Shown piece by piece: positions 14,663 to 34,993 of a stretch of DNA of 64,000 nt. The stretch's first letter is position 1, and the number at the start of each line of letters is the position of its first letter. Source of the DNA: Cohaesibacter marisflavi (GTDB lineage Bacteria > Pseudomonadota > Alphaproteobacteria > Rhizobiales > Cohaesibacteraceae); assembly GCF_900115225.1 (NCBI RefSeq), contig NZ_FOVR01000018.1, forward strand, positions 1 to 64,000. The letters run 5' to 3'. The notes beneath the pieces were generated by a model, which saw only the letters and a program-made list of their open reading frames with translations, was not told the origin of the DNA and ran no database searches. A program made the position numbers and the translations under genes.

Positions 14663-17600
14663 ATGATGACCCTGGACCCGATGAGTCTGGCCTGGATGGG
14701 GGCCATTTTTCTATTGTGCGGCGAGATAGGGGCTCTGCTGAGCCTTAAGAATCCTGTCCGTGTTTTCATCGTCTCGACAATCGCAGAAATCGGTTATGTT
14801 CTGATCGGATTCGGTATCGGTGGTGCTGCCGGTGAGACCGGAGCCTATATGCATATTACCTATCAACTCGTCATGCGTGGGCTGGTATTGGTGAGTGGCT
14901 GGTACCTTATCCGCCGGACGGCTTCGATCTGGCTGAGAGATCTGGCAGGCAGTGGTCGACGGATGCCTTTCGCTGCTACCCTGTTTGGTTTTGGCATGTT
15001 CTCAGTCATGGGGTTGTCGCCGTTCAAGGGATCCTTTTCCAAATTTCTCATTCTTTATGCGGCGATCGAGCAGGGGCAGTGGGCCATTGCGGCAGTTGGA
15101 ACTCTCGCTTCGATCATTGCTGCGGTTTATTATCTGATCCTCATTCAAAAAATCTGTTTTGAGAAATCAGGACACCGCATCCTGCTACGTCCAGCGCCCT
15201 CGCTGGCGATGCCTTTGGCAAGCCTGCTGAGCGTTGCTGCTGCGCTGATCAGCGTCTTTCCTGCCCCGGTTGAACATTGGGCAGCCAGCCTTGCTGGCTA
15301 TGCAGGTCTGGAGGGACTACCGGAGTTTGAATCACCTTGGGCGTTGCTTGTGCTGGTACCCTATATCGGTGGTTTCGTAATTTTCCTGCTGGGGCGTGTT
15401 TCCGCCCGATTGCGCGATTTGTCCGCCGTGGCACTTGCGATTGCCAGCGTGGCCATGGTTGCTCTGGATGTAACGCTTGATCCGACCTCAAAATTGTTTG
15501 CACTGCTGTTTGCCGGAATCATCGCAGTCATGGTTATCTATTCGATTGGCTATCTGGCAAAGCAGGAATGGGTCAACCGTTACTACTTCTTCACCTTCTT
15601 GATGCTCGGGTCGATGTTGGGGCTAACCACGGCGCATGAGTTCGGCAACTTCTATGTCTATTGGGAACTGATGACCTGGACGTCCTACTTCCTCGTCATT
15701 CACGAACAAACGCAGAAGGCGCTGAAAGCCGGTTTGGTCTATTTTGTGATGTGTGCCGGTGGTGCTTATCTCATGCATTACGGTATGCTGGTTGCCCACG
15801 CAGAAATAGGTTCATTTGAATTCAGCGCTCTAGCTGAAGGCTTCGCTGGTGTTGCCCCTGTCGCCGCTCTGGTCATTACGGGTGCAGTTTTCCTCGGCTT
15901 TGCGGTGAAAGCCGGTATGGTTCCTTTCCATGCCTGGTTGCCCCTGGCGCATCCTCAAGCCCCTTCATCGGTCTCCGGTCCATTGTCGGGCATCCTGACC
16001 AAGGCCGGTCTGTTCGGAATTGTCAAAATCCTGTTCGGTGTGTTTGGTGTATCAAGCATTGCTCGCGCTGCAGGCAATGGCATCGATCTGCAAACCGTGC
16101 TCATTGTGCTTGGTTGCTTCACTTTGCTCTATGGTGAGATCCGCGCTTTGTTCGAGAAAGAACTCAAGCGGATGCTTGCCTTTTCGACATTGGCGCAGGT
16201 GGGGGAAATCACGGCAATTTTGGGAATCGGCACAGCGCTGGCAACGGACGCCGCTCTGCTCCATGTCCTCAATCATGCGGTCATGAAAACCCTTCTCTTC
16301 TATTCGGCGGGCGCTTTCATGATGCGCACCGGACTACGCCAGATCAGTGATTTGGCAGGGCTGGGCAAGAAGATGCCGATCACCGCCGGAGTTTATGCGC
16401 TTGGTAGCGTTGCCCTCATGGGGCTGCCGCCTTTCTCCGGTTTCATATCGAAATTCCTAATGATCTACGCTGCGGCGGAAGCCGGACAGTATGCGGTTGC
16501 TGTGATCCTTCTCTTAGGTGGTATCATCGGCGTAGTTTACTATACCCGTGTCATCAGCGTTCTGTTTTATCATCCTGCATCCGCAGCGATCTGCGAGGTT
16601 AAAGAAGCGCCTGCCACCATGTTGTTGGCCATGGGGCTTTTGGCTGCTGCCATCCTCTTTGGCGGTCTGATGCCGACCTATCAGCTCAATCTGATTATGC
16701 CGATTGGCAATCAACTGGCGGCGAATGCTGGTCTCGTTCCGGCCATGGTGCCTGATCTGGTCATGCAATGGCCGCTTTCGGCAGGGTTGGTCATGATTGG
16801 TGCCATTCTGGTGCTGTTCACCGGGCGTTTCTCGGTGGTATGGGCTGGTCGTCTGGCAGTCGTCACGCTGCTGCTGGCCATTGCCGCCATCCAATATGAG
16901 GCGGATCGTTATGACCTGCTTTCTTTCTACTTTGCGCTTCTTATCGCAGGGGTCGGGGCACTCAACATGCTCCATACCACAGTCTATCTCGCTCACAGTC
17001 ATGCCCAGCCGCGCTTCTATGCCGCCTTTCTGGTGATGATCGCTGGTTTGTTGGGCATGACCGCAGCTGCTGATCTATTTAATTTCTTCGCTTTCTGGGA
17101 GTTGATGAGTGCCTGGGCTCTTTGGGCCGCAATCGTCCATGAGGAAACGGCAGTCGCTCGTAGAGAAGGGTTCAAATACTTCCTGTTCAACACCATCGGC
17201 GCGTCCCTCCTGTTCCTTGGCGTCACGATGGTCGCTGCCCAAAGCGGCACTTTCCTCCTGGCCGCTTTGGGTAACGCGCTTGCTGCCCTGCCGGTCGCCA
17301 CGATTGCGCCAGCTATCGTGTTGGTCTTCCTCGGCATGGTTATGAAAGCAGCTCAGTTGCCGGTGCGCATTGACTATCAGATGCATCCGGCCGCAGCTCC
17401 GACCCCTGTATCAGGCTACATTTCGGCGGTTCTGCTGAAAAGCGGTCCGTGGGGTGTGCTGAAGCTGTTTGTCGCTTTCGGAGGTGTAGCCGTCTTTGCC
17501 AAACTCGGTGGAACGGTCGCCGGGCAGCCGGTCCTGCTTTATGCCATCTCGATCATTGCAGGCATCACCATTGTCTATGCGGGTGTGATGGCGGTTATCC

Positions 17601-18448
17601 AGAACAGTATCAAGATGGTGCTGATCTATTCCACCGTCTCTCAGCTTGGCTATGTGCTACTGGCGCTTTCCCTTGGTACAACGCTCGGAGTTGCTGGCGG
17701 GTTGCTGCATTTCGTCAATCACATGCTGCTCAAGGATACACTGTTCCTTGTCGCTGGTGCGATCATGGTGCGCAGTCACGCCACCATGCTGGATGAGCTG
17801 GGTGGGCTTGGCCGCAAGATGCCCATGACCTTCGGTATGTTCCTCTTTGCCGGTTTGTCTCTTGCCGGGGTGCCGCCTCTTAATGGCTTCAGCTCGAAAT
17901 GGATGATCTTTGAAGCATCCTTCCAGTCTGGCCATTGGCTGCTTGGTGTCATGGCAATGATCGGCAGTCTGTTCACACTGGCTGCTGTGCTCAAATTCGC
18001 CCATGCCGCCTTCATGGGAACACCAAACCCGCGGGCTGAAGACGCTGAGGAAGCTCCCGTTGCCATGCTTGTTCCAATGGGTGTTCTGACCCTTGGTAGT
18101 CTGGCTCTCGGTCTCTTTCCCGGCCTCGCTCTGGTGCCGATTGCCGCGATCATGGACGACCTTGGCATGACCCCGATTGCCGCCACGTTGACGGGTCCTC
18201 TGCCGGGAACGGATGGCTGGAGCCCTGTGCTGCTTTCCATCTTGGTTCTGGTCTTTGGCCTCATTCTGCTGCCTTGGTTGCGGCTTGGGCGCAAGAGTGG
18301 CGTGGTCCGCTCCAACGCCCATGTCTGCGGCGTTGGCGATCTGTCGGGTGGTCAGACGCGCCTTGGTGCCATCAGCCTCTTTGAAACTCCGGACAACGCC
18401 ATCCATGGGCTGATGCCCAAGGGCCTTGGCTCAGAACCTCAAGCGTAA
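14663..18448 (+). CDS. Energy-converting hydrogenase giant membrane subunit, CooM-like (fused antiporter modules)
   Basis: A 1261-residue membrane protein made of repeated Mrp/NuoL-type ion-pumping modules. Three copies of the module hallmark MPxTxG...GxPPxxGFxSK occur, at about residues 100-130, 580-610 and 1060-1090. The first module is only the C-terminal half; the second (about 225-690) and third (about 700-1215) are nearly complete, with conserved lysines in LPLAHPQAPSSVSGPLSG and the equivalent DYQMHPAAAPTPVSGY. The length matches CooM of the R. rubrum CO-linked hydrogenase (about 1260). It should couple electron flow to proton or sodium translocation. It is followed 14 bases later by a CooK-like gene. 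Confidence 0.9.
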   Translation: MMTLDPMSLAWMGAIFLLCGEIGALLSLKNPVRVFIVSTIAEIGYVLIGFGIGGAAGETGAYMHITYQLVMRGLVLVSGWYLIRRTASIWLRDLAGSGRRMPFAATLFGFGMFSVMGLSPFKGSFSKFLILYAAIEQGQWAIAAVGTLASIIAAVYYLILIQKICFEKSGHRILLRPAPSLAMPLASLLSVAAALISVFPAPVEHWAASLAGYAGLEGLPEFESPWALLVLVPYIGGFVIFLLGRVSARLRDLSAVALAIASVAMVALDVTLDPTSKLFALLFAGIIAVMVIYSIGYLAKQEWVNRYYFFTFLMLGSMLGLTTAHEFGNFYVYWELMTWTSYFLVIHEQTQKALKAGLVYFVMCAGGAYLMHYGMLVAHAEIGSFEFSALAEGFAGVAPVAALVITGAVFLGFAVKAGMVPFHAWLPLAHPQAPSSVSGPLSGILTKAGLFGIVKILFGVFGVSSIARAAGNGIDLQTVLIVLGCFTLLYGEIRALFEKELKRMLAFSTLAQVGEITAILGIGTALATDAALLHVLNHAVMKTLLFYSAGAFMMRTGLRQISDLAGLGKKMPITAGVYALGSVALMGLPPFSGFISKFLMIYAAAEAGQYAVAVILLLGGIIGVVYYTRVISVLFYHPASAAICEVKEAPATMLLAMGLLAAAILFGGLMPTYQLNLIMPIGNQLAANAGLVPAMVPDLVMQWPLSAGLVMIGAILVLFTGRFSVVWAGRLAVVTLLLAIAAIQYEADRYDLLSFYFALLIAGVGALNMLHTTVYLAHSHAQPRFYAAFLVMIAGLLGMTAAADLFNFFAFWELMSAWALWAAIVHEETAVARREGFKYFLFNTIGASLLFLGVTMVAAQSGTFLLAALGNALAALPVATIAPAIVLVFLGMVMKAAQLPVRIDYQMHPAAAPTPVSGYISAVLLKSGPWGVLKLFVAFGGVAVFAKLGGTVAGQPVLLYAISIIAGITIVYAGVMAVIQNSIKMVLIYSTVSQLGYVLLALSLGTTLGVAGGLLHFVNHMLLKDTLFLVAGAIMVRSHATMLDELGGLGRKMPMTFGMFLFAGLSLAGVPPLNGFSSKWMIFEASFQSGHWLLGVMAMIGSLFTLAAVLKFAHAAFMGTPNPRAEDAEEAPVAMLVPMGVLTLGSLALGLFPGLALVPIAAIMDDLGMTPIAATLTGPLPGTDGWSPVLLSILVLVFGLILLPWLRLGRKSGVVRSNAHVCGVGDLSGGQTRLGAISLFETPDNAIHGLMPKGLGSEPQA

Positions 18449-18462
18449 GGAAGGGAACAACC

Positions 18463-19422
18463 ATGTCTACGCAACTCGGTATTCTTCTTGCGGTATTCCT
18501 GTTCCCCGGCGGCCTGTTCGCTCTGGTATTGGGATTGTCGCTCAAGGGCCTCGATCGGCGTGTCGCAGCCCGGCTTCAGGGGCGGATTGGGCCGCCTCTC
18601 GCACAACCCTTTTTTGATCTGGTCAAGCTCAGCTTCAAACGGACGATGGTGCCTGCCACAGCAAGCCAGCCAGTTTTTCTGGGAGCTCCGCTCGCCGGTG
18701 TCGTCTCCATGCTGGTAGCAGTGGCTCTGGTGCCGGTTTCCGGGCTCTATAGTCCTGATCCGATGCTGGGCAACCTGATCGTGCTGCTCTACCTGCTGAT
18801 GGTTCCTGCCATCGTGCTGATGATTGCAGGGTCGGCTTCAACTTCTCCCTACGGGGCGCTTGGCTTCTCGCGAGAGATGACGCTGATGCTCGCCTATGAG
18901 GCTCCGATTGTGCTGGCGGTGTTGGCCGTTGCCCTGCGCACGGGCATGGGACAGGGCGGTGTCATCACCTTCTCGCTTGTTGACATCATTGCCTATCAGC
19001 GCAGCCATGGCATGTTCCTGCTTGACCCGGTGATGTGGCCAGCGCTTGCAGCCTTTGCCCTGTTTTTTCCGGCTAACCTGGGGATCATCCCCTTCGACAT
19101 CCCCGAAGCTGAAACTGAAGTACTCGAAGGGCCGCTGCTTGAATATTCGGGGCCGGCGCTGGGGCTGTTCAAGGTCATGTCTGCGCTTAAAGCGGTGGTC
19201 GTTCTCAGCCTCGGCATCGCTCTCTTCATGCCGCTGCCCTTCGACGGCATCTGGGGCCTTATTGGCTGGCTGGTGCAACTGGCCGTGCTTATGGAAATCG
19301 GCGTCACCATCGTGCGTCTGTCCATGGGGCGCATGCGGATTGATCAGGCGTTCAGTTTCTTCGTGAAATGGCCTCTGCTGCTTGCTGTCGCGAGTGTTGT
19401 CACCGTCACGGTCGTGGCCTGA
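18463..19422 (+). CDS. Energy-converting hydrogenase membrane anchor, CooK-like (NuoH/HycD family)
   Basis: A 319-residue membrane protein with about eight helices, homologous to complex I NuoH. Family signatures are RVAARLQGRIGPPLAQPFFD near residue 30 and the cytoplasmic acidic loop IPFDIPEAETEVLEG near 215. It links the soluble hydrogenase subunits to the ion-pumping CooM-like subunit. Second gene of the M-K-L-X-U-H operon. Confidence 0.93.
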   Translation: MSTQLGILLAVFLFPGGLFALVLGLSLKGLDRRVAARLQGRIGPPLAQPFFDLVKLSFKRTMVPATASQPVFLGAPLAGVVSMLVAVALVPVSGLYSPDPMLGNLIVLLYLLMVPAIVLMIAGSASTSPYGALGFSREMTLMLAYEAPIVLAVLAVALRTGMGQGGVITFSLVDIIAYQRSHGMFLLDPVMWPALAAFALFFPANLGIIPFDIPEAETEVLEGPLLEYSGPALGLFKVMSALKAVVVLSLGIALFMPLPFDGIWGLIGWLVQLAVLMEIGVTIVRLSMGRMRIDQAFSFFVKWPLLLAVASVVTVTVVA

Positions 19423-19440
19423 GACTAGGAGATAGACAAG

Positions 19441-19878
19441 ATGAATATGATCCCAGACTTCAAGTCGATTGCAACAAAGTCCCCATGGATCTATCGGATC
19501 AATGCTGGCTCCTGCAACGGCTGTGATGTGGAGATGGCCACGACGGCACTTATTCCGCGTTACGATATCGAACGGCTAGGATGCCAATATTGTGGCTCTC
19601 CACGCCATGCTGACATCGTGCTGATTTCCGGACCGCTGACAACCAAGGTGATGGACGCCGCGATGGTGGTGTTCAACGAGATCCCTGATCCCAAGGTCAC
19701 GGTGGCGGTTGGTGTGTGCCCGATCTCGGGTGGCATCTTCCGCGAGAGCTATTCGGTCAAAGCTCCGATCGACCAGTATTTCCCCGTCGACGTCAATGTT
19801 CCCGGCTGTCCGCCACGCCCTCAAGCCATCATTGAAGGTGTCGCCAAGGCAATCGAGATATGGCGTGAGCGGATGTGA
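19441..19878 (+). CDS. [NiFe] hydrogenase small subunit, CooL-like (NuoB family)
   Basis: A 145-residue subunit that carries the proximal [4Fe-4S] cluster. The ligands are C25 and C28 in GSCNGCDVE, C93 in VGVCPISGG and C123 in PGCPPRP. It is short and lacks the extra C-terminal cluster domain of uptake hydrogenases, as expected for group 4 enzymes. It docks on the large subunit encoded at 21013 and passes electrons from the CooX-like ferredoxin subunit. A TAGGAGA ribosome site precedes the ATG. Confidence 0.94.
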   Translation: MNMIPDFKSIATKSPWIYRINAGSCNGCDVEMATTALIPRYDIERLGCQYCGSPRHADIVLISGPLTTKVMDAAMVVFNEIPDPKVTVAVGVCPISGGIFRESYSVKAPIDQYFPVDVNVPGCPPRPQAIIEGVAKAIEIWRERM

Positions 19879-19892
19879 GGAGGGCTAGAGAT

Positions 19893-20393
19893 ATGAATTT
19901 TCTGCAATTATTTGCGCATAATCTGACAAAGGGGCCCTTCACAGACCCGTTCCCCTTTGAGCCTGCGCCAACGGCCAAACGTTTCCGTGGCAAGATCGAG
20001 TTTGATCCTGAAACCTGTGAAGGTTGCCGTAAATGCGAAAAGGTCTGCCCGGCAGGCGCCATTCGCTTCACCAAGACCGCCAATGGTCTGGAATTCGATT
20101 GCTGGCATGACAGCTGCGTTTTCTGTGGCAACTGCGAGTTTCACTGCCCGACGAATGCCATTCACCAAACACAGGACTGGCATCTGGCTCATGTCCAGCA
20201 AGACAAATTCAGCATGGTCGAACATGGAGTCATTCCAAGTCACGAATGCCCAAGCTGTGGCAAGCCAGCTCTTTATACCGCCGCTCCGGCTAACAAGATC
20301 AAAGGCTTCAGCGAAGCAGAAGTCGCCGAGTTCCGTTCGCTCTGTCCGAAATGCCGAGGCAAATATCTCAGAGAAAGAAAGAGCCGGTCATGA
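19893..20393 (+). CDS. Hydrogenase ferredoxin-like subunit, CooX-like (NuoI/HycF family)
   Basis: A 166-residue 2[4Fe-4S] subunit when started at ATG 19893, which has GAGGAGGG eight bases upstream. Cluster 1 uses C42, C45, C48 and C52; cluster 2 uses C75, C78, C81 and C85. Two more cysteine pairs (C119/C122 and C151/C154) follow in a C-terminal tail and look like a zinc or iron knuckle. It should receive electrons from the external ferredoxin and hand them to the CooL-like subunit. The stop overlaps the next start (ATGA). Confidence 0.92.
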   Translation: MNFLQLFAHNLTKGPFTDPFPFEPAPTAKRFRGKIEFDPETCEGCRKCEKVCPAGAIRFTKTANGLEFDCWHDSCVFCGNCEFHCPTNAIHQTQDWHLAHVQQDKFSMVEHGVIPSHECPSCGKPALYTAAPANKIKGFSEAEVAEFRSLCPKCRGKYLRERKSRS

Positions 20394-21010
20394 CACGTTT
20401 TCCTGAAAATTTTGAAACCAGTCTGAGCGCTGCCGCGCCAAAGGGTGTGAACCTGACCACCACGACCGACGCCCATGGCGTTTCGGTGATGTGGTGCGAA
20501 CTTGCCGACAGGAATGATCTCACATCCGTGGGCGAATGCCTGCGACGCTATCATGCCCGGCTGGCCATGGTTTCGGCAAACAAACCTCCTGCTCCAGAAG
20601 AAGAGGAGGACGACAATGATGACGAAGAGGATGAATCAGCTGCGGGTGAAACCAATGAGCCTGAGCAGCCCATGAGTTTTGGGGGCACGCCACAAGACGG
20701 CACCTCCTACGAGCTGGTCTATCACTTCGACGTGGGTGGAGACTATGTGAATGTCGTCGCTTTTCTCCCCGCTGGCGGTTCCATAGCCTCCCTCACGCCC
20801 TTGTTCCGCTCGGCCGATTGGCCAGAACGGGAGATTATGGAGATCTATTCCGTCACCATTACCAATCATCCCGATCCGAGACGGCTGTTCCTTGACGAAA
20901 GCATCGAAGGGGCTGTCCTCGACCGGTTGATCCCTTTCTCCCAGATGGCAAATGCGTCCACGTCCGATGAGTTATGGGCACGGGTCATGGCCGCAGCCAA
21001 GGAGGCATGA
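20390..21010 (+). CDS. Hydrogenase subunit, CooU-like (NuoC/HycE N-terminal family)
   Basis: A 206-residue protein related to the 30-kDa subunit of complex I. The conserved C-terminal half has the FRSADWPEREIMEIYSVTI region and NHPDPRRLFLDE. Between residues 68 and 93 there is a strongly acidic insertion (mainly E and D) before the conserved fold resumes; this looks like a disordered linker. The start at 20390 overlaps the previous stop, and the stop overlaps the ribosome site of the large-subunit gene. Confidence 0.9.
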   Translation: MTRFPENFETSLSAAAPKGVNLTTTTDAHGVSVMWCELADRNDLTSVGECLRRYHARLAMVSANKPPAPEEEEDDNDDEEDESAAGETNEPEQPMSFGGTPQDGTSYELVYHFDVGGDYVNVVAFLPAGGSIASLTPLFRSADWPEREIMEIYSVTITNHPDPRRLFLDESIEGAVLDRLIPFSQMANASTSDELWARVMAAAKEA

Positions 21011-21012
21011 GC

Positions 21013-22113: not shown

Positions 22114-22179
22114 GGCATGCCCCGCTACATCTTGCAACAGCAAGGGAGGACACGGCGGGAAATAGTGATCAGGCACATT

Positions 22180-22199
22180 CCGGCCCAAATTTTGGTCGG
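22180..22199 (+). promoter_or_regulatory. Inverted repeat between the hydrogenase and ferredoxin genes
   Basis: CCGGCCCAAATTTTGGTCGG can fold into a short hairpin with small internal mismatches. It sits in the 150-base gap after the large subunit. No T-run follows, so it may act in transcript processing or stability and not as a terminator; the function is inferred. Confidence 0.3.
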
Positions 22200-22263
22200 G
22201 GTGTCCCCCATAGCGGCGGACCGGCAGGTCGGTTCAGCCAAAGATAACTGAGAGGAGAAAAAA

Positions 22264-22455
22264 ATGGCTTATGCAATCGATCAGGACATCTGTGAAGCCT
22301 GTGGTGCATGCATCGATGAATGCCCGAACAAGGCCATCACCCGCAAAGGCAAGCTCTATTCCATAAACGCCAGCAAATGCAAGGAATGCGAAGGCGATTT
22401 CGATGAGCCGCAATGCGTCGAAGTCTGCCAGTCGGGTGCCGTCTATCACGTTTGA
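22264..22455 (+). CDS. 2[4Fe-4S] ferredoxin
   Basis: A 63-residue ferredoxin. The first cluster motif is CEACGACIDECP; the second is C-x2-C-x8-C-x3-C (CKEC...CVEVC), a longer loop like that of YfhL/allochromatium-type ferredoxins, which usually have low potentials. It has a good ribosome site (GAGAGGAG). It lies between the hydrogenase and the XdhC and MOP genes, where R. rubrum has cooF, and is the natural candidate for the electron shuttle between the aldehyde oxidoreductase and the hydrogenase. Confidence 0.93.
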   Translation: MAYAIDQDICEACGACIDECPNKAITRKGKLYSINASKCKECEGDFDEPQCVEVCQSGAVYHV

Positions 22456-22598
22456 TGTCTCCTGAAGACCTGCCTTCGCTGGACTGGCTGTCAAGGAGGA
22501 GAAACCGTGTGTTTTCTTTCTTCTGGTGGTTGGCTCAGAAAAACCAGTTGGAGGCAGGCCTAGAGGGAAGCATCTGGCCATTTTGAAAGGCAAAAACA

Positions 22599-26276: not shown

Positions 26277-26440
26277 GCCTGAAACGAAGCAGCATGGCAT
26301 TTCCTCTTACAATGCCATGCATGCTTCTGGTGGGCGCGGGACCGGGTATGCCTCTTATCCGGCCCTGCACCTCTGACATCAAACTGGCTGGACCGGATTC
26401 TTCAGGCCCGGCAATAGAGACAGATGAACGGGGCATCAAA

Positions 26441-28780
26441 ATGGATAGCGATCAGGTAAAGCTTCTGGAAGCAAGATGCATTGAGGAACAACCTCCTGCT
26501 TGCGAGGTGACTTGTCCCCTACGCGTCGATGTGAGGTCAATGTTGGCCAAGGTTAAGGAAGGGGATTTCCCCGCAGCATTTGCGCTTTATTGCCTTTATG
26601 TGCCTTTTCCTGCCATTCTCGGACATATATGCGATCATCCATGTGAAGAAGGGTGCCGTCGGGCAGAAGCCGGTGGGGCGGTGCGCATTTCCCAGATTGA
26701 GCGGACCCTTGTCGAGGAAAGCTGTTCCACTTTGCGTCGGCAGGCACAAAGAATCGCCAAACCCAAAAAGATTGCCATCGTGGGGGCAGGGTTGTCGGGG
26801 CTGACGGCTGCCTTCGATCTGGCTATGAAGGGGCACAGGATCACCGTTCTGGAAGCGGACGCCCATCCGCTCGAACGGTTGCATCATGAATATGACCCCG
26901 CCATTCTCCCGCCTTCTGCCATTGCTCTTGATCTGGGCAGTCTCACTTCGCTCGGGGTTGATATCCGTTGCCAATGCAGGGTGACTGGCGGAGAGGGCCC
27001 GATGGGTCTTGCAAGCCTGATCGAAGACCATGACGCCGTTCTGCTTGCTCTTGGACCCGGAGTCGCAACGGCCTTTGCTCCGACCATCCGACTGAGTGAC
27101 AATGGGCGCATCGAGATCGATCCCGAAAGCCGTGCGACCAGCCATCCGAAAGTCTTCGGTGGCGGCTATCATGGCGCGTTGGGCGAGGTCTATTCACCTG
27201 TTCGGTCCATCTATGATGGAAGGCGGGCCGCTGGTTCCATAGACAGGTTCCTGCAAGGGGCTTCCTTGACGGCAAATCGAGATAGCACGGCTGCGGCAAC
27301 CTCTTGCCTTTATGTCAATGTCGATGCACATCCGCCCGTTCCTCCCGTCGAGGCCGCAAACAGCATAATTGGATACACCCCTGATGAAGCCATAGCAGAG
27401 GCGGAACGGTGTTTTCCGTGTAATTGCCTGGAATGCACAAAAGCCTGCGCTTATCTTGCCCACTACAAGACCTATCCCAAACGCGCGGTGCGCGAGATTC
27501 ATAACAATCTCAGCATCGTCATGGGCAACCGTAAGGCCAACCGGATGATTGACAGCTGCACGCTCTGCGGTTTGTGTGAGACGGTGTGCCCCACGGATCT
27601 GGCTATGGGGGATGTCTGTCTTGAAGCACGTCGTGAGATGGTTGATAGCGGCCACATGCCCGCTTCTCATCACGACTTCGCCTTGCGTGACATGGCGGAC
27701 AGCCGGTCACATCGCTCTGCCTTCATGCGCCATCAACCCGGCCATGACAAAAGTGCTTATCTTTTCTTCCCCGGTTGCCAGTTGGCCGCTTCCGCTCCTT
27801 ATCAGGTGCAAGGGCTCTATCTGCATCTTGGTGCAATAGTATCCGGAGGGGTTGGATTGATGATGGATTGCTGTGGTGCGCCTGCCTACTGGGCCGGACG
27901 CACAGCACTGCATGATGAAGTTTTGGCACATCTGCGTGCAAGCTGGGAAAGCTGTGGCAAGCCGGAGATCATCACGGCTTGCTCGACCTGTCTGTCCATG
28001 TTCAAGAAGGCCATGCCAGACCTTCCTGTGCGGTCGCTCTGGCCTTTGCTCGCGAAAAGCCCGTTGCCAACAAAGGCAAGGGCTGTGCCGGATGGCACCG
28101 TGTTTGCCATTCATGATCCCTGCACTGGGCGTCACGAGACAGAAATCCATGCTGCTGTGCGCTCCCTAGCTGCAGATACCGGGCTGACGATACGAGAGAT
28201 TTCTGGTCCGGAAAAGACGACCTGCTGCGGTTATGGCGGTTTGGTATCCTTTGCCAATCGTGAGGTAGCGGACGCCATTGTTGATCAAAGAGCTGCAGAG
28301 CTTTCCGAGGATTATTTGGCCTATTGTGCCATGTGTCGGGACAATTTTGCCCGACGGGGGAAGAGATCTGCACACCTGCTCGATTTCCTGTTTCCATCTG
28401 AAGATGGAGCCGATCCGGCGGCCCGTCCAGACCCGGGCTTCTCCAATCGCCGGGACAATAGAGCCCGCTTGAAGGCCAGATTGCTGCGTGAACTATGGGG
28501 GGAAAGCATGCAAGAGCAAGATCCTGAGTGGACTATTCTAATTTCAGATGACGTCCGGGTTGATATGGAGCGCAAGCTGATCCTCGATGACGAAGTGCGC
28601 GAGGTCGTGGCTCATGCGGAAACATCAGGACAGAAACTGAAGGACAGGAAAAGCGGGCATATGATCGCGACTCTGCGCACAGGGCCGGTAAGCACTTGGG
28701 TGGAATATGAACTCACAGATGAGGGGGCGCTCATCCACCGCGCCTATGGGCATCGTATGGATGTGGAGGTGCAAAAATGA
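26441..28780 (+). CDS. FAD- and Fe-S-dependent oxidoreductase with CCG domains (DVU1560-like)
   Basis: A 779-residue redox protein when started at ATG 26441; the frame is open upstream but the family begins here. It has an N-terminal GltD-like cysteine region (ICDHPCEEGC), an FAD-binding Rossmann motif VGAGLSGLTAAFDLA, two [4Fe-4S] motifs (CFPCNCLEC and CTLCGLCETVC) and two CCG domains of the HdrB/GlpC type (FFPGC...DCCGAP and HDPC...TCCGYGG). A final domain of about 90 residues is unassigned. Proteins like this are found beside mop in sulfate reducers. It may link MOP to ferredoxin or NAD(P)H, or reduce a thiol partner; the role is unproven. Confidence 0.85.
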   Translation: MDSDQVKLLEARCIEEQPPACEVTCPLRVDVRSMLAKVKEGDFPAAFALYCLYVPFPAILGHICDHPCEEGCRRAEAGGAVRISQIERTLVEESCSTLRRQAQRIAKPKKIAIVGAGLSGLTAAFDLAMKGHRITVLEADAHPLERLHHEYDPAILPPSAIALDLGSLTSLGVDIRCQCRVTGGEGPMGLASLIEDHDAVLLALGPGVATAFAPTIRLSDNGRIEIDPESRATSHPKVFGGGYHGALGEVYSPVRSIYDGRRAAGSIDRFLQGASLTANRDSTAAATSCLYVNVDAHPPVPPVEAANSIIGYTPDEAIAEAERCFPCNCLECTKACAYLAHYKTYPKRAVREIHNNLSIVMGNRKANRMIDSCTLCGLCETVCPTDLAMGDVCLEARREMVDSGHMPASHHDFALRDMADSRSHRSAFMRHQPGHDKSAYLFFPGCQLAASAPYQVQGLYLHLGAIVSGGVGLMMDCCGAPAYWAGRTALHDEVLAHLRASWESCGKPEIITACSTCLSMFKKAMPDLPVRSLWPLLAKSPLPTKARAVPDGTVFAIHDPCTGRHETEIHAAVRSLAADTGLTIREISGPEKTTCCGYGGLVSFANREVADAIVDQRAAELSEDYLAYCAMCRDNFARRGKRSAHLLDFLFPSEDGADPAARPDPGFSNRRDNRARLKARLLRELWGESMQEQDPEWTILISDDVRVDMERKLILDDEVREVVAHAETSGQKLKDRKSGHMIATLRTGPVSTWVEYELTDEGALIHRAYGHRMDVEVQK

Positions 28781-28995
28781 CTTCTCCCAAGGAACAAGAG
28801 ACCCCGCATTTGGACGATCTACTCTGTGCGAGATGCGAAACTCCGCTCCAGCAGGGAAAGGTCATTGCCAGCTATATGGGGCAGACCTTTCCGGTGGATC
28901 TTCCCGTCTGCCCAACATGCGGCTTTGTCTATATTTCTGAAGATCTGGCTTATGGCCGCATGTTGAAAGTCGAACAGGCTTTGGAGGACAAATGA
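28777..28995 (+). CDS. Small two-CxxC redox/zinc protein (DVU1557-like)
   Basis: A 72-residue protein with CARC at residues 17-20 and CPTC at 45-48, a rubredoxin- or zinc-ribbon-like spacing. It overlaps both neighbours by four bases (ATGA), so the three genes are translationally coupled. The order matches the small redox protein of the D. vulgaris mop neighbourhood. It could carry iron and move electrons, or it could be a structural zinc protein; the sequence does not decide. Confidence 0.8.
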   Translation: MTSPKEQETPHLDDLLCARCETPLQQGKVIASYMGQTFPVDLPVCPTCGFVYISEDLAYGRMLKVEQALEDK

Positions 28996-29783
28996 AGATC
29001 AACGGCCCTCATGGCGTAATGGATTCTGTCACCAGACAGGCTGCGGGTCAGCATGCCAGTGGGTGCGCGGGCCTCTTTGGCTATGGTCTTGTCACGGACA
29101 GAAATGGCGATCCAATAAGCCCTGGTGGGCTGCGGATGACTGGTGAGCTTCTTGATCGGGCTGGCTTTGCTATCGCAGATCATGTGGTCGATGTGGGATG
29201 CGGGCAGGGGCGCAGTCTGGGAGTCATGATCCGCCGCGGATTGAATGTGGTGGGTGTCGACACGGATGCGGCCCCGCTCGCGATGGCCCGCAATCTGTTC
29301 CCCAACGTGGATCTGTTCTGCTGCAGTGGTGCAGCCATGCCGATTGATAACGAAGCCATGGATGGGGTGCTATCTGAATGCGTGTTGACAGTCATGCCGG
29401 ATCACCGGGCCGCGCTGGCTGAATGGTTCAGGGTTTTACGAGCAGGGGGCAAACTAGCCTTGTGCGATGTATATGCCCGAAATCCGGACATGTCCCTATG
29501 GGATGAAAGGGCGATCCGCCTTTTATCGGCGGATAGAGTGAGAAAGGCCATCGGAACGGCAGGCTTTCAGCTGCTGTATTTTGAGGATAGATCTGAATGT
29601 CTGCGCAACTTTGTGGCCCGTTTCATTTTCCGGTTTGGTTCCCTTGACGCCTTGTGGGGAGATGCTCGAACCAGTGCCCAGATGCATGCCTTGAAGCCCG
29701 GATACTATATGGCCATTGCGGTCAAGCCCATTGATCGTCCTGCGAATACCAATCGGGCCAACAGTCAGGAGGCAATAACATGA
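28992..29783 (+). CDS. SAM-dependent methyltransferase (DVU1556-like)
   Basis: A 263-residue class I methyltransferase. The SAM-binding motif I is VVDVGCGQGRS near residue 60, followed by VVGVDTDAAPLAMA and the motif LRAGGKLALCDVY. Similar to UbiE/MenG in fold, but its place in a tightly overlapping mop-linked cassette suggests a dedicated small-molecule or cofactor substrate. The substrate is unknown. Start and stop both overlap neighbours by four bases. Confidence 0.82.
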   Translation: MKINGPHGVMDSVTRQAAGQHASGCAGLFGYGLVTDRNGDPISPGGLRMTGELLDRAGFAIADHVVDVGCGQGRSLGVMIRRGLNVVGVDTDAAPLAMARNLFPNVDLFCCSGAAMPIDNEAMDGVLSECVLTVMPDHRAALAEWFRVLRAGGKLALCDVYARNPDMSLWDERAIRLLSADRVRKAIGTAGFQLLYFEDRSECLRNFVARFIFRFGSLDALWGDARTSAQMHALKPGYYMAIAVKPIDRPANTNRANSQEAIT

Positions 29784-30268
29784 CAGAAGACTCCTTTCGC
29801 GTAGCTGAGTTGCTGCTCGCCGATCTCAAATGCAGTCACATCATGATGATACTGGCGTTGGAAGCCGCAGGTCGACAGGATCCAGATCTCGTTCGCGCCA
29901 TGTCTGGCCTTGCTGTTGGCATGGGGCAGGGCATGACGTGCGGCATTCTTTCTGCCGGTTCTTGCGTTGTTGGCATGCTGGTGGGTAAGGCCGGTGAGGA
30001 TGAAAGTGAAGACAGTCGCTTTGTCGATATTCTTGAAGAGTTCGGTGGTTGGTTCAAGCATCGATGCACAGAGGAGTATGGCGGTTGTAATTGCAGCGAC
30101 ATCATGCAGTTTGACATGAATTTGAAAGCCCGGCGTTGCCCCGCTCTGATCGCTGAAAGCTGGCAGAAACTCAACGAAATACTCAACCGCTATGACGTCG
30201 ATATCGCTCACCCGCCACGCGGAAGTGAGACCTGCGAGGATACTGGCGCATTGGAGTTCCTGTCATGA
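29780..30268 (+). CDS. C-GCAxxG-C-C family protein (DVU1555-like)
   Basis: A 162-residue helical protein of the C_GCAxxG_C_C family, whose members carry a set of spaced cysteines proposed to bind a metal or cluster. Visible here are C18, TCGILSAGSC near residue 55, and C96, C103 and C105 (HRC...GGCNC), plus RRCP near 118. The usual GCAxxG is a CGILSAG variant. It is coupled to the methyltransferase gene before and the nucleotidyltransferase gene after by four-base overlaps. The function is unknown. Confidence 0.8.
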   Translation: MTEDSFRVAELLLADLKCSHIMMILALEAAGRQDPDLVRAMSGLAVGMGQGMTCGILSAGSCVVGMLVGKAGEDESEDSRFVDILEEFGGWFKHRCTEEYGGCNCSDIMQFDMNLKARRCPALIAESWQKLNEILNRYDVDIAHPPRGSETCEDTGALEFLS

Positions 30269-31452
30269 TGGATCTTGCGCAAACCGATACCCTTGAAAGG
30301 CCAGCATCGAGAAACAAACATGAGGCACCAATTGCGGCTGTCATTCTGTCTGCCGGGCTTTCGTCGCGCATGGGTGCTTTCAAACCGCTGTTGCCCTTTG
30401 GTGATGGCACTGTGCTCAGACATGTTGTGCAGGTGGCGCGCCAAGCTGGTGCCGAACCTGTTCATGTCGTGATCGGGCATAAAGCCAAGGAACTCCGTTC
30501 CCATGTCGAGAGTATCGGGGCGGTAGCGGTGTATAATCGGGATTATGAGAGCGGCATGTTCAGTTCTATCAAGGCTGGCATTGCGTCCTTGCCCCAAATG
30601 GTTGCTGGCTGTCTGTTGATGCCAGTTGATATTCCGCTGGTCAGGCCGACCACTCTGAAGCGGGTTATGGCAAAAGCCCGCCATGCTGATGCTTTATTGG
30701 TTCATCCGGTTTTTGATGGCCTAATCGGTCACCCGCCTTTCATCGCTAGGGGCCTCTTTGAAGGTCTGCTGGCAGGGGATGGACAAGAGGGGGGGGCAGC
30801 CTCGATCCTGTCGCGCCATGCGTCGGAAACAATCGCCGTATTTGATAGTGGTTGCCTCAGGGACATGGACTATCCCGAAGAGCATGCAGAACAGCTGGCG
30901 GTTCTCCAAAACCACCATTTGCCCGATGAGCGTGAATGTGAAGCCCTGTTTGATGCGGCTGGAACGCCACAATCCGTCCGTCGTCATGGGCAAGCTGTCG
31001 CCAAATTGGCCAATTTACTGGCAAGCGGACTTCTCGAACATAAGCAGGATCTGGACATGGGACAGATCACGGCTGGAGCCCTGTTGCATGATATCGCAAA
31101 GGGCCGACCTCAACACGCTTCTCTAGGAGCGGAATTGCTCGCCGAATGGGGATTTCCCGCGCTCCATAATATAGTTGGGCAACACATGGCCTTGGCAAAT
31201 GGATATCAGCGTCTTGATGAAATCGCACTGGTCTATCTCGCTGACAAGCTTGTCTCCGGGGAGGAAATCGTTGGCCTTGAACAGCGCTTCGCTCCGGCAT
31301 TTGTGCGATTTGCCGATCAACCGGACGCGTTGGCTGGTGTGCGCAAGCGGCTCAGCGATGCCCTTGCCATTGTGGCTGCCATCAATACTTTGGGGGGCGA
31401 TGTTCCCGGTGTGCCGATTGAAATCAGGAATATGTTGGAGGCTGCATCATGA
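30265..31452 (+). CDS. MocA-like nucleotidyltransferase fused to an HD domain (DVU1551-like)
   Basis: A 395-residue fusion. Residues about 20-215 are a MobA/MocA-type NTP transferase with LSAGLSSRMGAFKPLLPFGDGT and MPVDIPLVRP (metal-binding Asp). Residues about 230-385 are an HD phosphohydrolase domain with ALLHDIAKG and GQHMAL. E. coli MocA makes the cytosine dinucleotide form of the molybdenum cofactor, the form found in MOP, so this is the best candidate for that step here. What the HD domain cleaves is unknown. Confidence 0.85.
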   Translation: MMDLAQTDTLERPASRNKHEAPIAAVILSAGLSSRMGAFKPLLPFGDGTVLRHVVQVARQAGAEPVHVVIGHKAKELRSHVESIGAVAVYNRDYESGMFSSIKAGIASLPQMVAGCLLMPVDIPLVRPTTLKRVMAKARHADALLVHPVFDGLIGHPPFIARGLFEGLLAGDGQEGGAASILSRHASETIAVFDSGCLRDMDYPEEHAEQLAVLQNHHLPDERECEALFDAAGTPQSVRRHGQAVAKLANLLASGLLEHKQDLDMGQITAGALLHDIAKGRPQHASLGAELLAEWGFPALHNIVGQHMALANGYQRLDEIALVYLADKLVSGEEIVGLEQRFAPAFVRFADQPDALAGVRKRLSDALAIVAAINTLGGDVPGVPIEIRNMLEAAS

Positions 31453-32993
31453 CCTATTCCGACAGTCGTATGGTTCTCGGCACAACAGAAAGCGTTTGCC
31501 CGGATTGTCTCAAAACCGTTTCTGCGATCCGCTATGCCGAGGGCGACACCGTCTATCTTGAGAAAAGCTGCCCAGAACATGGAACGGTAAGCACGCCTAT
31601 CTGGCGTGGTCTCAAAAGCTACTTCCTTTGGGACAAAGCTCCGCGGAACCAGTCGCAGATTCTCAATCCGGCGACGTCGGTCGATAAGGGGTGTCCCCAT
31701 GATTGCGGCATATGCTCCGACCATCAGCAGCAAAGCTGTTGTGTTTTGCTCGAAGTGACGTCTCGCTGCAATATCGCTTGCCCCTTCTGCTTTGCTTCGG
31801 CAGAGCGGGAAGGCAAAGATGTGTCTATGCATACCATAAACAAGTGGCTTGACACACTGATGGAACGGGCCGGAGGTAGAGTGCATATCCAGCTTTCCGG
31901 AGGAGAGCCGACGGTGCGTGACGATTTGCCCGAAATCATAGCGCTTGTCCGCTCAAAGGGCTTTTCTTTTGTTCAGCTCAACACCAACGGTTTAAGGCTT
32001 TCAAAGGATCCTGATTATGTCCGAGCATTGGCTGATGCGGGTTTAGACTGTGTCTTCCTACAATTTGATGGCGTGTCTGATGCTGTTCACAAAGCCATGC
32101 GCGGTGCAAAGTTGGCACGCATCAAGGAAGATGCCATTGCTGCTTGTGAAAAGGCGCATATTGGCGTGGTGTTGGTGCCGACACTCGTGCCGGGTGTCAA
32201 TACCGATCAAATTGGCGCAATCGTTGACTATGCCAAAGCCCATATGCCGACTGTTCGCGCAGTGCATTTTCAACCTGTGAGCTATTTTGGCCGGACACCG
32301 GAGCCTCCCCGTCCGGAGACCCGTTTCACGCTGCCGGAAGTCATGGATGCACTGATCTCTCATGAGAAGGGAGGAATTTCTCTTTATGATTTCCATCCGG
32401 GATCTGCGGAAAATCCTTTCTGTTCCTTCAGTGGTCGCTTTGTCGTTGAGGAGGATGGGCGCTTGGTCCCTGATCAGGTTGCTCAGTCATCCTGCTGTTC
32501 GGCAGGTGAAGATACGGGTGGGGCAGCCAGCCAGTCCTGTGGGTGTGGTGTGCCGGGAGAGGATCTGCTCGTCCGGCCGCCGGAAACAGAAATCGAGCAT
32601 GAGCAAGAAGGATGTCGCTGTTCGTCCGGGAACGAGCCGGAGCCTGCCAAGTCCAGTTGTTGTCCTGGCCCTGATGCTCAGAAAGAAGCTGTGCCTGGTG
32701 CCGATGTGGCGCGCGCGCGTCGCTATGTTGCTGACCAGTGGAGCTGTGCAGATGAGGAGGATGATACCGACGATCCCTCTTTTGCTGCTTTTGATGCCGT
32801 GCTGAAGCGGCGTGCCCGCACGTTGGGACTGTCGGCGATGGTTTTTCAGGATGCATGGACGCTAGATCTGGAGCGTCTGCGCCAATGCTACATTCATGTC
32901 ATGATGCCTGACCAGAAGGCTGTGCCTTTTTGTGCATTCAATCTTACGGATCGGGAAGGGCGTTCGCTCTACCGGAAGGAGGAGGGATGCTGA
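31449..32993 (+). CDS. Radical SAM protein with cysteine-rich insertion (TrsS-like)
   Basis: A 514-residue radical SAM enzyme. The cluster motif is C107-x3-C111-x2-C114 (CNIACPFC), followed by LSGGEPTVR. The N-terminal region has extra cysteine groups (C17/C20, C41, C82/C86/C89) like those of the tetraether-synthase-type radical SAM proteins. Between about residues 345 and 430 there is an insertion with five short cysteine clusters (SCC, SCGCG, CRCS, SSCC). RefSeq describes related mop-linked proteins as radical SAM (seleno)proteins, from memory; this copy has no in-frame TGA. The product is unknown. Overlaps on both sides show it is part of the cassette. Confidence 0.82.
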   Translation: MTYSDSRMVLGTTESVCPDCLKTVSAIRYAEGDTVYLEKSCPEHGTVSTPIWRGLKSYFLWDKAPRNQSQILNPATSVDKGCPHDCGICSDHQQQSCCVLLEVTSRCNIACPFCFASAEREGKDVSMHTINKWLDTLMERAGGRVHIQLSGGEPTVRDDLPEIIALVRSKGFSFVQLNTNGLRLSKDPDYVRALADAGLDCVFLQFDGVSDAVHKAMRGAKLARIKEDAIAACEKAHIGVVLVPTLVPGVNTDQIGAIVDYAKAHMPTVRAVHFQPVSYFGRTPEPPRPETRFTLPEVMDALISHEKGGISLYDFHPGSAENPFCSFSGRFVVEEDGRLVPDQVAQSSCCSAGEDTGGAASQSCGCGVPGEDLLVRPPETEIEHEQEGCRCSSGNEPEPAKSSCCPGPDAQKEAVPGADVARARRYVADQWSCADEEDDTDDPSFAAFDAVLKRRARTLGLSAMVFQDAWTLDLERLRQCYIHVMMPDQKAVPFCAFNLTDREGRSLYRKEEGC

Positions 32994-34993
32994 AGACTTT
33001 CATGCAGAGTGAGGTTTTTGGGCAATGCGAGCGTGGCTTCTGTCCTTTTGAAACCCGAGAAGAGCGCGATGCCTATCAACTTGCCCATATTCGCGATACG
33101 ATCGAGCATGCTCGCGCCAACAGTGGTTTCTATCGCCAGTTTCCCCGCTGGCCGGAAGGGCTGCCGCAGAGCCTTGCAGATGTTCAAGGTCTGCCCTTTA
33201 CATGGCCGGAAGATCTAGCGCGCAATGATCCACCCCTCATCGCTGCGCCCCGCAATCTGGTTGCGCGTATGGTAACGCTGGAAAGCTCGGGCACTACGGG
33301 GGCTCCCAAGCGCATAGCCTTCTCGGATGCGGATTTGGAAAACACCATTAACTATTTCCACCGTGGCATGAGCCAGTTTACCCACGCCGGAGATCGTGTC
33401 GGAATCGCCTTTCCTGCGACCCGGTCTGGTAGTATCGGTCAGGGACTATACGAAGCGACGCGACGCCTCAACGCCACACCGCTGACGGCGCCCGATGTTT
33501 CTTCTGCGGACGCCTTGCTTGATTGGCTTCGTGCCGAACAGCCTGATGTGCTGTTCGGTCTTCCGGTCCCCTTCTTTGCCGTTGCTCGTCTTTCTCTATC
33601 TGATGGTGGTCTGGTGCCCCATCCTCGTGCGATCCTTATCAGTGCTGACCATGCCTGCGAAGCAATAATTCGCGGTCTTGAAACCATGTGGGGCACATCT
33701 GTCTTCAATCATTGGGGCATGACGGAAACCGGCTATGGCGGGGCGCTGGAGTGTGTTTGCCATGATGGATTGCATGTGAGGGAAACGGATCTTTATCTGG
33801 AAATCGTGGATCCTCTTACCGGCACTGTTCTGCCTGAAGGGGGCTATGGCGAAATAACGATTACCACGCTCCGCCGAGAAGTGCTGCCACTGATCCGCTA
33901 CAGGACTGGAGATCTGGGGCGATTGGTTGACGAGCCGTGCACGTGCGGCAATGTCACCCGACGTCTTTATGGCCCCGATGACCGGTTGCTCACGGCCTTT
34001 GAACTTCCCGGGAGCGAAAGGCTGACGCGTGGTGCATTGGATGAAGCGCTTTTCGCGACAGATGGTGTCACCGACTACGCCGCCTCTTTGGCAAGCGATG
34101 GTAAAGGGCAGGCGATATTGCAACTGAATGTCGCTTCCATTGCGACTGTGCAAAAGGATGGCTTGGAACAAAGTATTTTGAATGAATTGCAGAGGCTACC
34201 TGCTTTCAAGCAGGCGGCTGGTCTTGGTCACCTGTCTCTCGACCTGAAACAGGCAGATGCAGTTTTGCTCCCTCACAAAAGCAAAAGAGTTCCGGTCCGG
34301 CAGAATGGCGGGTCAAGAACGAGGGCGGTGCTGTTCGATCTGGATGGTACCCTGGCTCATACATTGCCTGCTGTGCATGCGGCGGTGAATTGTGCTCGCG
34401 CTTCTGTTGGGCGCCCTCCAGTGTCGGAGGATCTGGTAGCAAGGCTTCTGGGCGAGGGAGCATTCCGGCTTATCGGCACCATTGCGGAGCATTTGGGAGA
34501 AAAGATCAAAGAAGAGGAGCAAAAGGTCCAGCTTGACCACTATCTGGCTTACTATCCCATGATGGAAGAGCAGATGGCTCGGCTTTATCCTGATGTGGTG
34601 CCGGTTTTGCAAAGGCTCACCGAGGAGGCCTATCGCGTCGTGGTTGTGACCAACAAATGCCAGCGGGATGCGGAAGCGCTTGTCAAAAGGCTTGGGTTGT
34701 CTGCGTTTCTGGACGCGATTGTTGGAAAGACACCCTCGCTGTCATCAAAGCCAAGACCAGACCTGTTGCTGATGGCTTGTCGCCATGTGTCGCTTGTTGT
34801 CGGGGAGTGTCTTTTCGTTGGGGATGGACCGGAAGATTGGAGTGCGGCTCAAAGGCTCACTATGCCCGCACTTCTGATCAAGCGCAGTAAAATCGAGAGG
34901 GAGATTCTGCCGGTTCCCTGTGTTGTCGAAGAAATAACGGAAGGGAGGGTAATCAAAAGTCTGAATGATCTGATGGCTTATCTAAAGAAATAA
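32987..34993 (+). CDS. AMP-dependent ligase fused to HAD phosphatase (DVU1553-like)
   Basis: A 668-residue two-part protein. Residues about 1-435 are a PaaK/adenylate-forming ligase with the ATP loop LESSGTTGAPKRIAF and later YRTGDLGRL. Residues about 443-668 are a haloacid dehalogenase hydrolase with LFDLDGTLAHT, VVVTNK and VGDGPEDW, close to phosphoglycolate phosphatases. I chose ATG 32987, which overlaps the preceding stop by seven bases and has AAGGAGGAGG upstream; the upstream frame is the shadow of the previous gene. One active site would activate a carboxylate, the other would remove a phosphate; both substrates are unknown. Confidence 0.85.
   Translation: MLKTFMQSEVFGQCERGFCPFETREERDAYQLAHIRDTIEHARANSGFYRQFPRWPEGLPQSLADVQGLPFTWPEDLARNDPPLIAAPRNLVARMVTLESSGTTGAPKRIAFSDADLENTINYFHRGMSQFTHAGDRVGIAFPATRSGSIGQGLYEATRRLNATPLTAPDVSSADALLDWLRAEQPDVLFGLPVPFFAVARLSLSDGGLVPHPRAILISADHACEAIIRGLETMWGTSVFNHWGMTETGYGGALECVCHDGLHVRETDLYLEIVDPLTGTVLPEGGYGEITITTLRREVLPLIRYRTGDLGRLVDEPCTCGNVTRRLYGPDDRLLTAFELPGSERLTRGALDEALFATDGVTDYAASLASDGKGQAILQLNVASIATVQKDGLEQSILNELQRLPAFKQAAGLGHLSLDLKQADAVLLPHKSKRVPVRQNGGSRTRAVLFDLDGTLAHTLPAVHAAVNCARASVGRPPVSEDLVARLLGEGAFRLIGTIAEHLGEKIKEEEQKVQLDHYLAYYPMMEEQMARLYPDVVPVLQRLTEEAYRVVVVTNKCQRDAEALVKRLGLSAFLDAIVGKTPSLSSKPRPDLLLMACRHVSLVVGECLFVGDGPEDWSAAQRLTMPALLIKRSKIEREILPVPCVVEEITEGRVIKSLNDLMAYLKK

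Follow-up and report, generated by a model that had tools for sequence, protein, structure and literature searches.

A Coo-type hydrogenase gene cluster joined to a MOP aldehyde oxidoreductase module in Cohaesibacter marisflavi: a predicted route from aldehyde to H2

A 64-kb stretch of the Cohaesibacter marisflavi genome (contig NZ_FOVR01000018.1, positions 1 to 64,000; assembly GCF_900115225.1, 5.34 Mb in 41 contigs, completeness 98.47), hereafter the window, was analysed for a cluster at 14663-34993 in which the six genes of a Coo-type hydrogenase are followed by a small ferredoxin gene and by the genes of an aldehyde oxidoreductase of the MOP type. The genetic module is real and conserved, and it is undescribed as far as searches of the open-access literature show. 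It is best read as a dedicated aldehyde-fed hydrogenase module, in which MOP, a flavoprotein and the ferredoxin would supply CooX, CooL and CooH, the input having been switched from CO to aldehyde; a probability of roughly 60% was given to this reading. Comparison with other genomes strongly supports the prediction that hydrogenase and MOP are functionally coupled. The substrate, the role of the flavin partner, the order of electron transfer, its direction and the pumping of ions are what we infer from the encoded proteins.

Profile matches and reading of the open reading frames (ORFs) placed cooM, cooK, cooL, cooX, cooU and cooH, then the ferredoxin gene, a gene of the XdhC family and mop, on one strand (+) and in the order given by an original prediction made from the DNA letters. 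CooM (14663-18448) is a 1261-residue antiporter-like membrane subunit with NuoL/M/N-family matches and 47.5% identity to CooM of a CooS-linked cluster. CooK (18463-19422) was matched as a NuoH-like membrane subunit, CooL (19441-19878) as the NuoB-like small subunit (NF005012, 123 bits, cut-off 116), CooX (19875-20393) as a 2[4Fe-4S] subunit by its Fer4 domains, and CooU (20351-21010) as a NuoC-like subunit (PF00329). A highly acidic insertion (PEEEEDDNDDEEDES) precedes the NuoC-like domain of CooU. CooH (20974-22113), the [NiFe] large subunit, carries CxxC motifs in ERICSLCSNSH and in the C-terminal DPCISCTER, and its alignments span both motifs in formate hydrogenlyase subunit 5 (7z0s) and in the Mbh alpha subunit (6cfw). 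Because both motifs are kept and aligned through to these large subunits, CooH was assigned as a hydrogenase and not as NuoD; the genome has just one other Complex1_49kDa protein, on contig 25, which by its score is probably NuoD. All six subunits matched the CooS-linked cluster in order (tblastn). The six-gene order and the nickel-binding CxxC pairs are those of a Coo-type (group 4c) energy-converting hydrogenase.

The place of CooF is taken by a 63-residue Alvin/YfhL-type 2[4Fe-4S] ferredoxin (22264-22455, +; NF033683, 61 bits, below the cut-off of 86; PDB 1rgv), followed on the same strand by an XdhC-family MOP maturation factor (22599-23465; NF045664, 283 bits, below the cut-off of 350) and by MOP itself (23487-26276; NF045668, 1557.8 bits, cut-off 1100). 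The best PDB matches of MOP were 1dgj and 1sij, which we take to be the D. desulfuricans and D. gigas enzymes. When the in-frame ATG at 23523 is used as the start, all eight [2Fe-2S] cysteines fall at the D. gigas numbers (40, 45, 48, 60, 100, 103, 137 and 139), as had been predicted. Glu869 (read from the PDB alignment) is kept, as are F425, F494, L497, R533, Y535 and L626, which we take to be pocket positions. Aldehyde oxidation is predicted from the score over cut-off, the eight cysteines and the active-site Glu869, all of which mark the protein as MOP-type.

The gene after mop encodes a flavin/iron-sulfur "dicluster" protein (26294-28780, +; NF045663, 940 bits, over cut-off) with an FAD domain, Fer4 clusters and CCG motifs. 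Of 30 Desulfovibrionaceae loci, 28 have it next to mop, as do all seven clusters found in Alphaproteobacteria, that of the window included. The protein is a candidate flavin partner, since MOP has no FAD domain and flavodoxin is the putative MOP partner in D. gigas, where it is viewed as a pseudo-subunit (PMC10223205). Its alignments to three Nfn/GltD-type flavoproteins (three of 24 matches) fell into two pieces with 127-136 template residues skipped, and the query ran on with no gap at that point. The skipped residues and the unbroken query suggest that the NAD(P)H-binding domain is absent, and such a loss speaks against NAD(P) as the acceptor.

The accessory genes that complete the cluster, also on the + strand, encode a DVU_1556 family methyltransferase (28992-29783; NF045667), a DVU_1555 family C-GCAxxG-C-C protein (29780-30268; NF045669), a DVU_1551 family NTP transferase with an HD domain (30265-31452; NF045665), the radical SAM protein TrsS (31449-32993; NF045646, 596 bits) and a DVU_1553 family AMP-dependent ligase fused to a HAD phosphatase (32930-34993; NF045666, with HAD matches), all over their cut-offs. 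Up to 34993 the genes match the MOP accessory families of NCBIfam: those named for Desulfovibrio vulgaris DVU_1551, DVU_1553, DVU_1555 and DVU_1556, TrsS and NF045663. The likeness of the NTP transferase to MocA (TIGR03310, 117 bits, below cut-off) would fit a cytosine-dinucleotide form of the Mo cofactor.

The pairing of hydrogenase and MOP was then followed in other Alphaproteobacteria. Among 18 genomes of the genus (CooH counted at E up to 1e-60), MOP scored over cut-off in five and CooH was found in six, and the five MOP-bearing genomes are the five that hold a CooH of 94-100% identity. The order from hypA/cooM to hypE was the same in all four MOP-bearing genomes other than that of the window (hypC was not scanned), and the nearest named relative found was Cohaesibacter haloalkalitolerans (Cohaesibacteraceae; CooH 94%). 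Contigs were scanned for named relatives with the window peptides as queries, a search that reaches only close kin (39 stretches, five loci). MOP followed the hydrogenase in three of the five, those of Cohaesibacter (L007), Consotaella (L008; Aurantimonadaceae) and a Rhodospirillum metagenome-assembled genome (MAG; L009), which share the order ferredoxin, xdhC, mop, flavoprotein, trsM, CGCAxxG protein, NTP transferase and trsS. The Rhodospirillum MAG locus continues with the ligase, a regulator 59% identical to that of the window and then hypB; the Consotaella locus starts at cooL, behind TRAP-transporter-like genes. A locus of Bilophila (L011) reads cooMKLXUH-hypA and has no MOP within 10 kb. 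In total the adjacency is conserved in seven genomes (window included) from three families of Alphaproteobacteria. The original prediction had proposed to look for cooH close to mop and for the absence of cooS from such genomes; the pairing recurs, and CooS was over cut-off in none of the five relatives searched, two of which gave sub-threshold matches of 28-32 bits.

In samples of the class and the phylum, matches were rare. MOP was over cut-off in one of 289 genomes of a class sample, that of the window itself, with weaker wider-family matches at E 1e-100 in 68; for the hydrogenase, E 1e-60 was reached by three genomes of that sample (the other two with 36% identity) and E 1e-90 by one of 398 genomes of a phylum sample. 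Two small genomes of the same class carry an Ech-like hydrogenase 36% identical to CooH (L005 1486-4077, L006 1495-4071), directly ahead of a gene judged by eye to be PFOR-like.

The Desulfovibrionaceae provided a contrast. Among 199 sampled genomes of this family, CooH was found in 62, MOP in 131 and both in 44; the best MOP and CooH matches shared a contig, with 30 kb or more between them, in 8 of the 44 and were on different contigs in 36. Forty coo loci (39 genomes, of 64 matches; about 10 kb on each side, three shortened by contig ends) held a CooF-like gene in 40, CooS in three and MOP in none. Of the 44 genomes that hold both genes, 28 are represented by these loci, and with L011 and one more same-contig pair 30 could be judged, none of which showed adjacency. 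Likewise, no coo gene was present within the 1.5-kb flanks of 30 MOP loci. On these loci, adjacency seems to characterise the alphaproteobacterial module and not to hold for every genome in which both genes occur. Chance adjacency was rejected on the recurrence together with this contrast.

A CO input was sought next to the hydrogenase and elsewhere. No match to CooS was obtained in the 41 contigs of the assembly, and no CooS, CooC or true CooF was present in the window and the next 19 kb of the contig, to which the search for CooF was confined; the only CooF match there was the ferredoxin domain of CooX. The original prediction had held that a co-regulated cooS/cooF pair elsewhere in the genome would tell against it: CooS was sought genome-wide and was absent, and for CooF this holds for the window and the 19 kb beyond. 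A CO-dependent system was rejected on these absences. Domains of tungsten aldehyde:ferredoxin oxidoreductase (W-AOR) were likewise without a match in the window and the next 19 kb, the rest of the genome not having been searched for them.

A genuine CO-linked cluster was found in another genome of the genus (G662), in the order CooF, CooS, CooC, hypB, cooMKLXUH, hypF, hypC, hypD and hypE (L077 1200-18683). Its CooS scored 734 bits (cut-off 478), its CooC-like protein was named by sequence (no NCBIfam match at 1e-20), its CooH is 55% identical to that of the window, and the genome holds no MOP over cut-off. R. rubrum, with which the original prediction drew its comparison, does carry cooFSCTJ and cooMKLXUH, described as two gene clusters (PMC4652020). 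That the cluster might be an ordinary CO-driven hydrogenase, with CooS elsewhere or missed and MOP a neighbour by accident, draws on the identity of the six genes with R. rubrum cooMKLXUH (PMC4652020) and on a draft that is 98.47% complete. This account is largely refuted and hardly credible, given that CooS is lacking from the assembly and, over cut-off, from the five relatives, that CooF is lacking from the window, that the real CooS of G662 scores 734 bits, and that the adjacency is conserved in seven genomes.

Other oxidoreductases were found in the place of MOP. A Sideroxyarcus MAG (L010 3690-20018) carries cooMKLXUH, the small ferredoxin, some unrelated genes, a second ferredoxin copy and a W-AOR (576 residues; PF02730 and PF01314; best PDB matches 9mqx and 1aor), followed by tungstate-type transporter genes (for a permease like TupB, an ABC ATPase and a protein like TupA, the two Tup matches lying below cut-off) and by MoeA; it may be a variant of this module that uses tungsten. 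A second Consotaella cluster (L089 4511-18316) runs from cooMKLXUH and the ferredoxin to a DVU_1551-like protein (237 bits, cut-off 315) and a 1541-residue enzyme with PFOR domains (376 bits, below the PFOR cut-off of 911). A third Consotaella place (L090 10690-18160) yielded cooMKL alone, next to a homologue (45%) of the regulator in the window. The small ferredoxin is the element common to the MOP, W-AOR and PFOR clusters: homologues follow cooH in all three kinds and, outside Cohaesibacter, are 47-75% identical to that of the window.

Trees were built for CooH and MOP. The CooH tree (28 rows, with 12 of the 37 CooF-only Desulfovibrionaceae loci and three with CooS) united the MOP-, PFOR- and W-AOR-linked rows in one clade (100/98), sister to the CooS-linked row of G662 (96/98), whose branch is long. 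The original prediction had proposed to place the large subunit in a [NiFe] hydrogenase tree (group 4c or sister). What the 28 rows show is a position as sister to a CooS-linked CooH; R. rubrum CooH is not among them, and the result concerns the CooS- and CooF-linked rows that were tested. The MOP tree (21 MOP-family rows, with 10 of the 30 fetched Desulfovibrionaceae loci) placed the coo-linked MOPs together (89/95, under the program's star), beside a Desulfovibrionaceae group (99/99).

In the proposed mechanism, the Mo-pterin centre of MOP would oxidise an aldehyde to the acid, and the electrons would pass through the two [2Fe-2S] clusters of the enzyme to the flavin/iron-sulfur protein, its presumed flavin partner. 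From there the small ferredoxin with its 2[4Fe-4S] centres would receive them and hand them through CooX and CooL to CooH, where protons would be reduced to H2 while CooM and CooK translocate ions. The system would have arisen from a Coo-type hydrogenase whose CO input through CooF and CooS gave way to an aldehyde input. The claim that aldehyde oxidation lies low enough in potential to reduce protons agrees with the value for acetaldehyde/acetate of about -580 mV (PMC4275255, PMC5861303). An altered carrier would also fit an altered donor, since other ferredoxins native to R. rubrum could not effectively stand in for CooF between the carbon monoxide dehydrogenase and the hydrogenase (PMC4652020). 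The original prediction had spoken of a complex or pathway that oxidises an aldehyde, evolves H2 and pumps ions, an interpretation that the comparison bears out in part. The coupling is backed by the conserved pairing, the lack of CooS in the assembly, the G662 control and the W-AOR- and PFOR-linked clade mates; the idea of a complex fared less well, as the presence of a small, free ferredoxin where CooF would stand points rather to a pathway.

Several observations weigh against an aldehyde feed of this kind. For 14 of the 44 Desulfovibrionaceae genomes with both genes, adjacency can be judged only from genes on different draft contigs, which slightly weakens the contrast; the case is carried by recurrence in three families. 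In that family the flavoprotein adjoins mop without a hydrogenase, so MOP has other outlets. The cooMK genes of Consotaella are not beside its MOP cluster and lie at two other places of the genome, and a PFOR-linked CooH falls inside the MOP-linked rows, so the clade cannot be assigned to a single donor. Gaps of 150 bp (after cooH) and 143 bp (before the XdhC gene) flank the ferredoxin gene, with further gaps of 211, 139 and 176 bp downstream, and these allow separate transcripts. The AlphaFold2 model of the flavoprotein had a mean predicted local distance difference test score (pLDDT) of 37 and was not used. The genome also encodes a PFOR-like protein (180 bits, below the cut-off of 911), a possible other reducer of ferredoxin. 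Finally, the iron-sulfur potentials of MOP presumably lie at about -260 to -290 mV, high for H2 formation at ordinary pressures, so that H2 would have to stay low or the flavin step would have to help. No such potentials were found in PMC12316806.

A flavin step of that sort can be pictured. The flavoprotein might be a new electron-splitting partner with an Nfn/GltD-type FAD site and no NAD(P)H domain, fed by MOP with electrons of moderately low potential, and it would send one electron to the ferredoxin and CooMKLXUH and the other up through its CCG module, within a plug-in hydrogenase family whose donor (CO, aldehyde through Mo or W enzymes, or pyruvate) is exchanged by way of neighbouring genes. 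We regard this as a long shot; if true, it would make aldehyde-driven H2 formation energetically workable.

Some of the same observations could be accommodated if the two enzymes shared an anaerobic metal-enzyme island but were not coupled directly. The hydrogenase would then drain ferredoxin reduced elsewhere, for example by the PFOR-like protein, the electrons of MOP and the flavoprotein would have another sink, such as quinone by way of the CCG module, and co-location would stem from the Ni and Mo cofactor genes and from anaerobic control. The PFOR-like protein of the genome, the occurrence of MOP and flavoprotein without an adjacent hydrogenase in Desulfovibrionaceae, the CCG domain of the flavoprotein and the presence of hyp and moa/moe genes in the same island all favour such an arrangement. 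It was nevertheless judged unlikely: PFOR-like genes occur in 14 of the 18 genus genomes, only six of which have CooH; in clusters with MOP or PFOR the ferredoxin gene separates cooH from the oxidoreductase genes, and the W-AOR cluster has two copies of it; the hyp genes of the Rhodospirillum MAG are differently arranged while coo, ferredoxin and mop stay intact; and the exchanged neighbours are all low-potential oxidoreductases. PFOR as an obligatory donor in this genome was rejected, as the PFOR-like protein does not track coo.

Aldehyde-fed H2 formation was also weighed against operation in reverse, in which gradient-driven oxidation of H2 would reduce ferredoxin for the conversion of acids to aldehydes or for the detoxification of a substrate. 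Energy-converting hydrogenases are, to our knowledge, generally reversible; we know of no case of acid reduction by MOP-type enzymes, which counts against this direction. The W-AOR of Aromatoleum can reduce acids with H2 (PMC9295118). Against this stand the low potential of the acid/aldehyde couple (PMC4275255, PMC5861303) and the recorded MOP chain, which runs towards H2 (PMC10223205), and reverse operation was held to be very unlikely.

Aldehyde-dependent H2 formation as such is already known. In D. gigas, a chain of MOP, flavodoxin, cytochrome c3 and hydrogenase led from aldehyde to H2 in vitro (Barata 1993, via PMC10223205), which agrees with the link through other carriers that had been named in the original prediction. 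The enzyme family is the same; that chain was reconstituted from four soluble proteins, whereas here the genes of a membrane hydrogenase adjoin the mop cluster. The S organism oxidised acetaldehyde to acetate and H2 by way of ferredoxin (Reddy 1972, cited in PMC5861303), and it and the W/Mo enzymes of Pelobacter resemble the present system in passing aldehyde electrons to H2 through ferredoxin (PMC5861303, PMC4275255); in Pelobacter, however, W-AOR is the main enzyme and the putative comproportionating hydrogenases lie at other loci (PMC4275255). In D. vulgaris, DVU_1559 is listed under ethanol metabolism and the Coo hydrogenase is encoded at a distant locus, DVU_2287 to 2293 (PMC10920352). 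The CooMKLXUH/CooF-CooS system of R. rubrum shares the six subunits in the same order, the ion-pumping type and a low-potential donor acting through an iron-sulfur carrier (PMC4652020). It is set apart from the present cluster by the lack of CooS here and of CooC and CooF in the window, by the small ferredoxin, the MOP module and a GAF/Crp regulator, and by a CooH clade separate from the CooS- and CooF-linked CooH tested. The large subunits of formate hydrogenlyase (HycE) and archaeal Mbh align with CooH across both nickel motifs. These enzymes differ from a Coo-type module in donor, gene order and subunits. No description of a coo hydrogenase cluster joined to mop was found in the titles and abstract openings of the open-access literature searched, most subscription literature being outside that scope; within these bounds the claim that no such case had been described holds.

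Further conserved genes lie on both sides of the cluster. Downstream, at 35133-42798 (+), are a transcription regulator and hypBFCDE. The regulator (35133-36839) has a GAF domain (PF01590), an N-terminus that is weakly DhaR-like (69 bits, far below cut-off) and a Crp-type helix-turn-helix (PF13545), and its homologue in the Rhodospirillum MAG occupies the same place. It is followed by hypB (37016-37882), hypF (37931-40252), hypC (40314-40628; PF01455), hypD (40628-41767) and hypE (41716-42798), all but hypC named from sequence. Divergent from cooM, at 8604-14334 (-), are the gene for a HypA nickel chaperone (13960-14334; PF01155, 101 bits) and genes of Mo-cofactor synthesis, encoding MoaA (12865-13908), a MoaC-Mog fusion (11720-12784) and a MoeB/ThiF-like protein (8604-9374), named from sequence, and MoeA (10482-11723; 288 bits, below the equivalog cut-off of 440). 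A DUF7009 protein (9361-9888; domain match) is encoded between moeA and the moeB-like gene and also beside the cluster in four other genomes of the genus, and may be part of the Mo-cofactor set. In the stretches of those four genomes MoaA, MoeA and DUF7009 were present in all, and MoaC-Mog and moeB in two. With the hyp, Mo-cofactor and MOP accessory genes, the island encodes the maturation of both a Ni and a Mo enzyme.

A scan of 13800-29200 for promoters and terminators gave no clear excess over shuffled sequence (promoters 7 vs 9.4, terminators 16 vs 14.8). FNR-like boxes were sought in six intergenic stretches, and the only one of note, a palindrome matching at 9 of 10 positions (35032-35045), lies upstream of the regulator; it is identical and at the same distance (-102) in four other genomes of the genus, and it was not found at the Rhodospirillum and Consotaella regulator homologues. 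It may be a chance site kept by kinship, the whole window holding four sites of this score. Farther downstream, 45178-51908 carries sulfoquinovose-type catabolic genes (an SftI-related isomerase of 281 bits, below cut-off, a TRAP transporter and a GH31 glycosidase), which were rejected as part of the module, since isomerase, transporter and glycosidase were not found within the 3-5 kb beyond hypE that were covered in the four other genomes of the genus. Three other window ORFs, at 43290, 44075 and 58668, do have matches in G661.

The module offers a genetically linked candidate answer, from free-living marine Alphaproteobacteria, to the question of what MOP does physiologically. With one clade of CooH and the same small ferredoxin joined to a Mo or W aldehyde enzyme or to a PFOR-like enzyme, it suggests that the CO-type hydrogenase may serve as a general platform. 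Should the aldehyde-fed reading hold, fermentation would have a new way of conserving energy in the form of an ion-pumping aldehyde:proton lyase, which would be useful for the production of hydrogen from aldehydes and alcohols.

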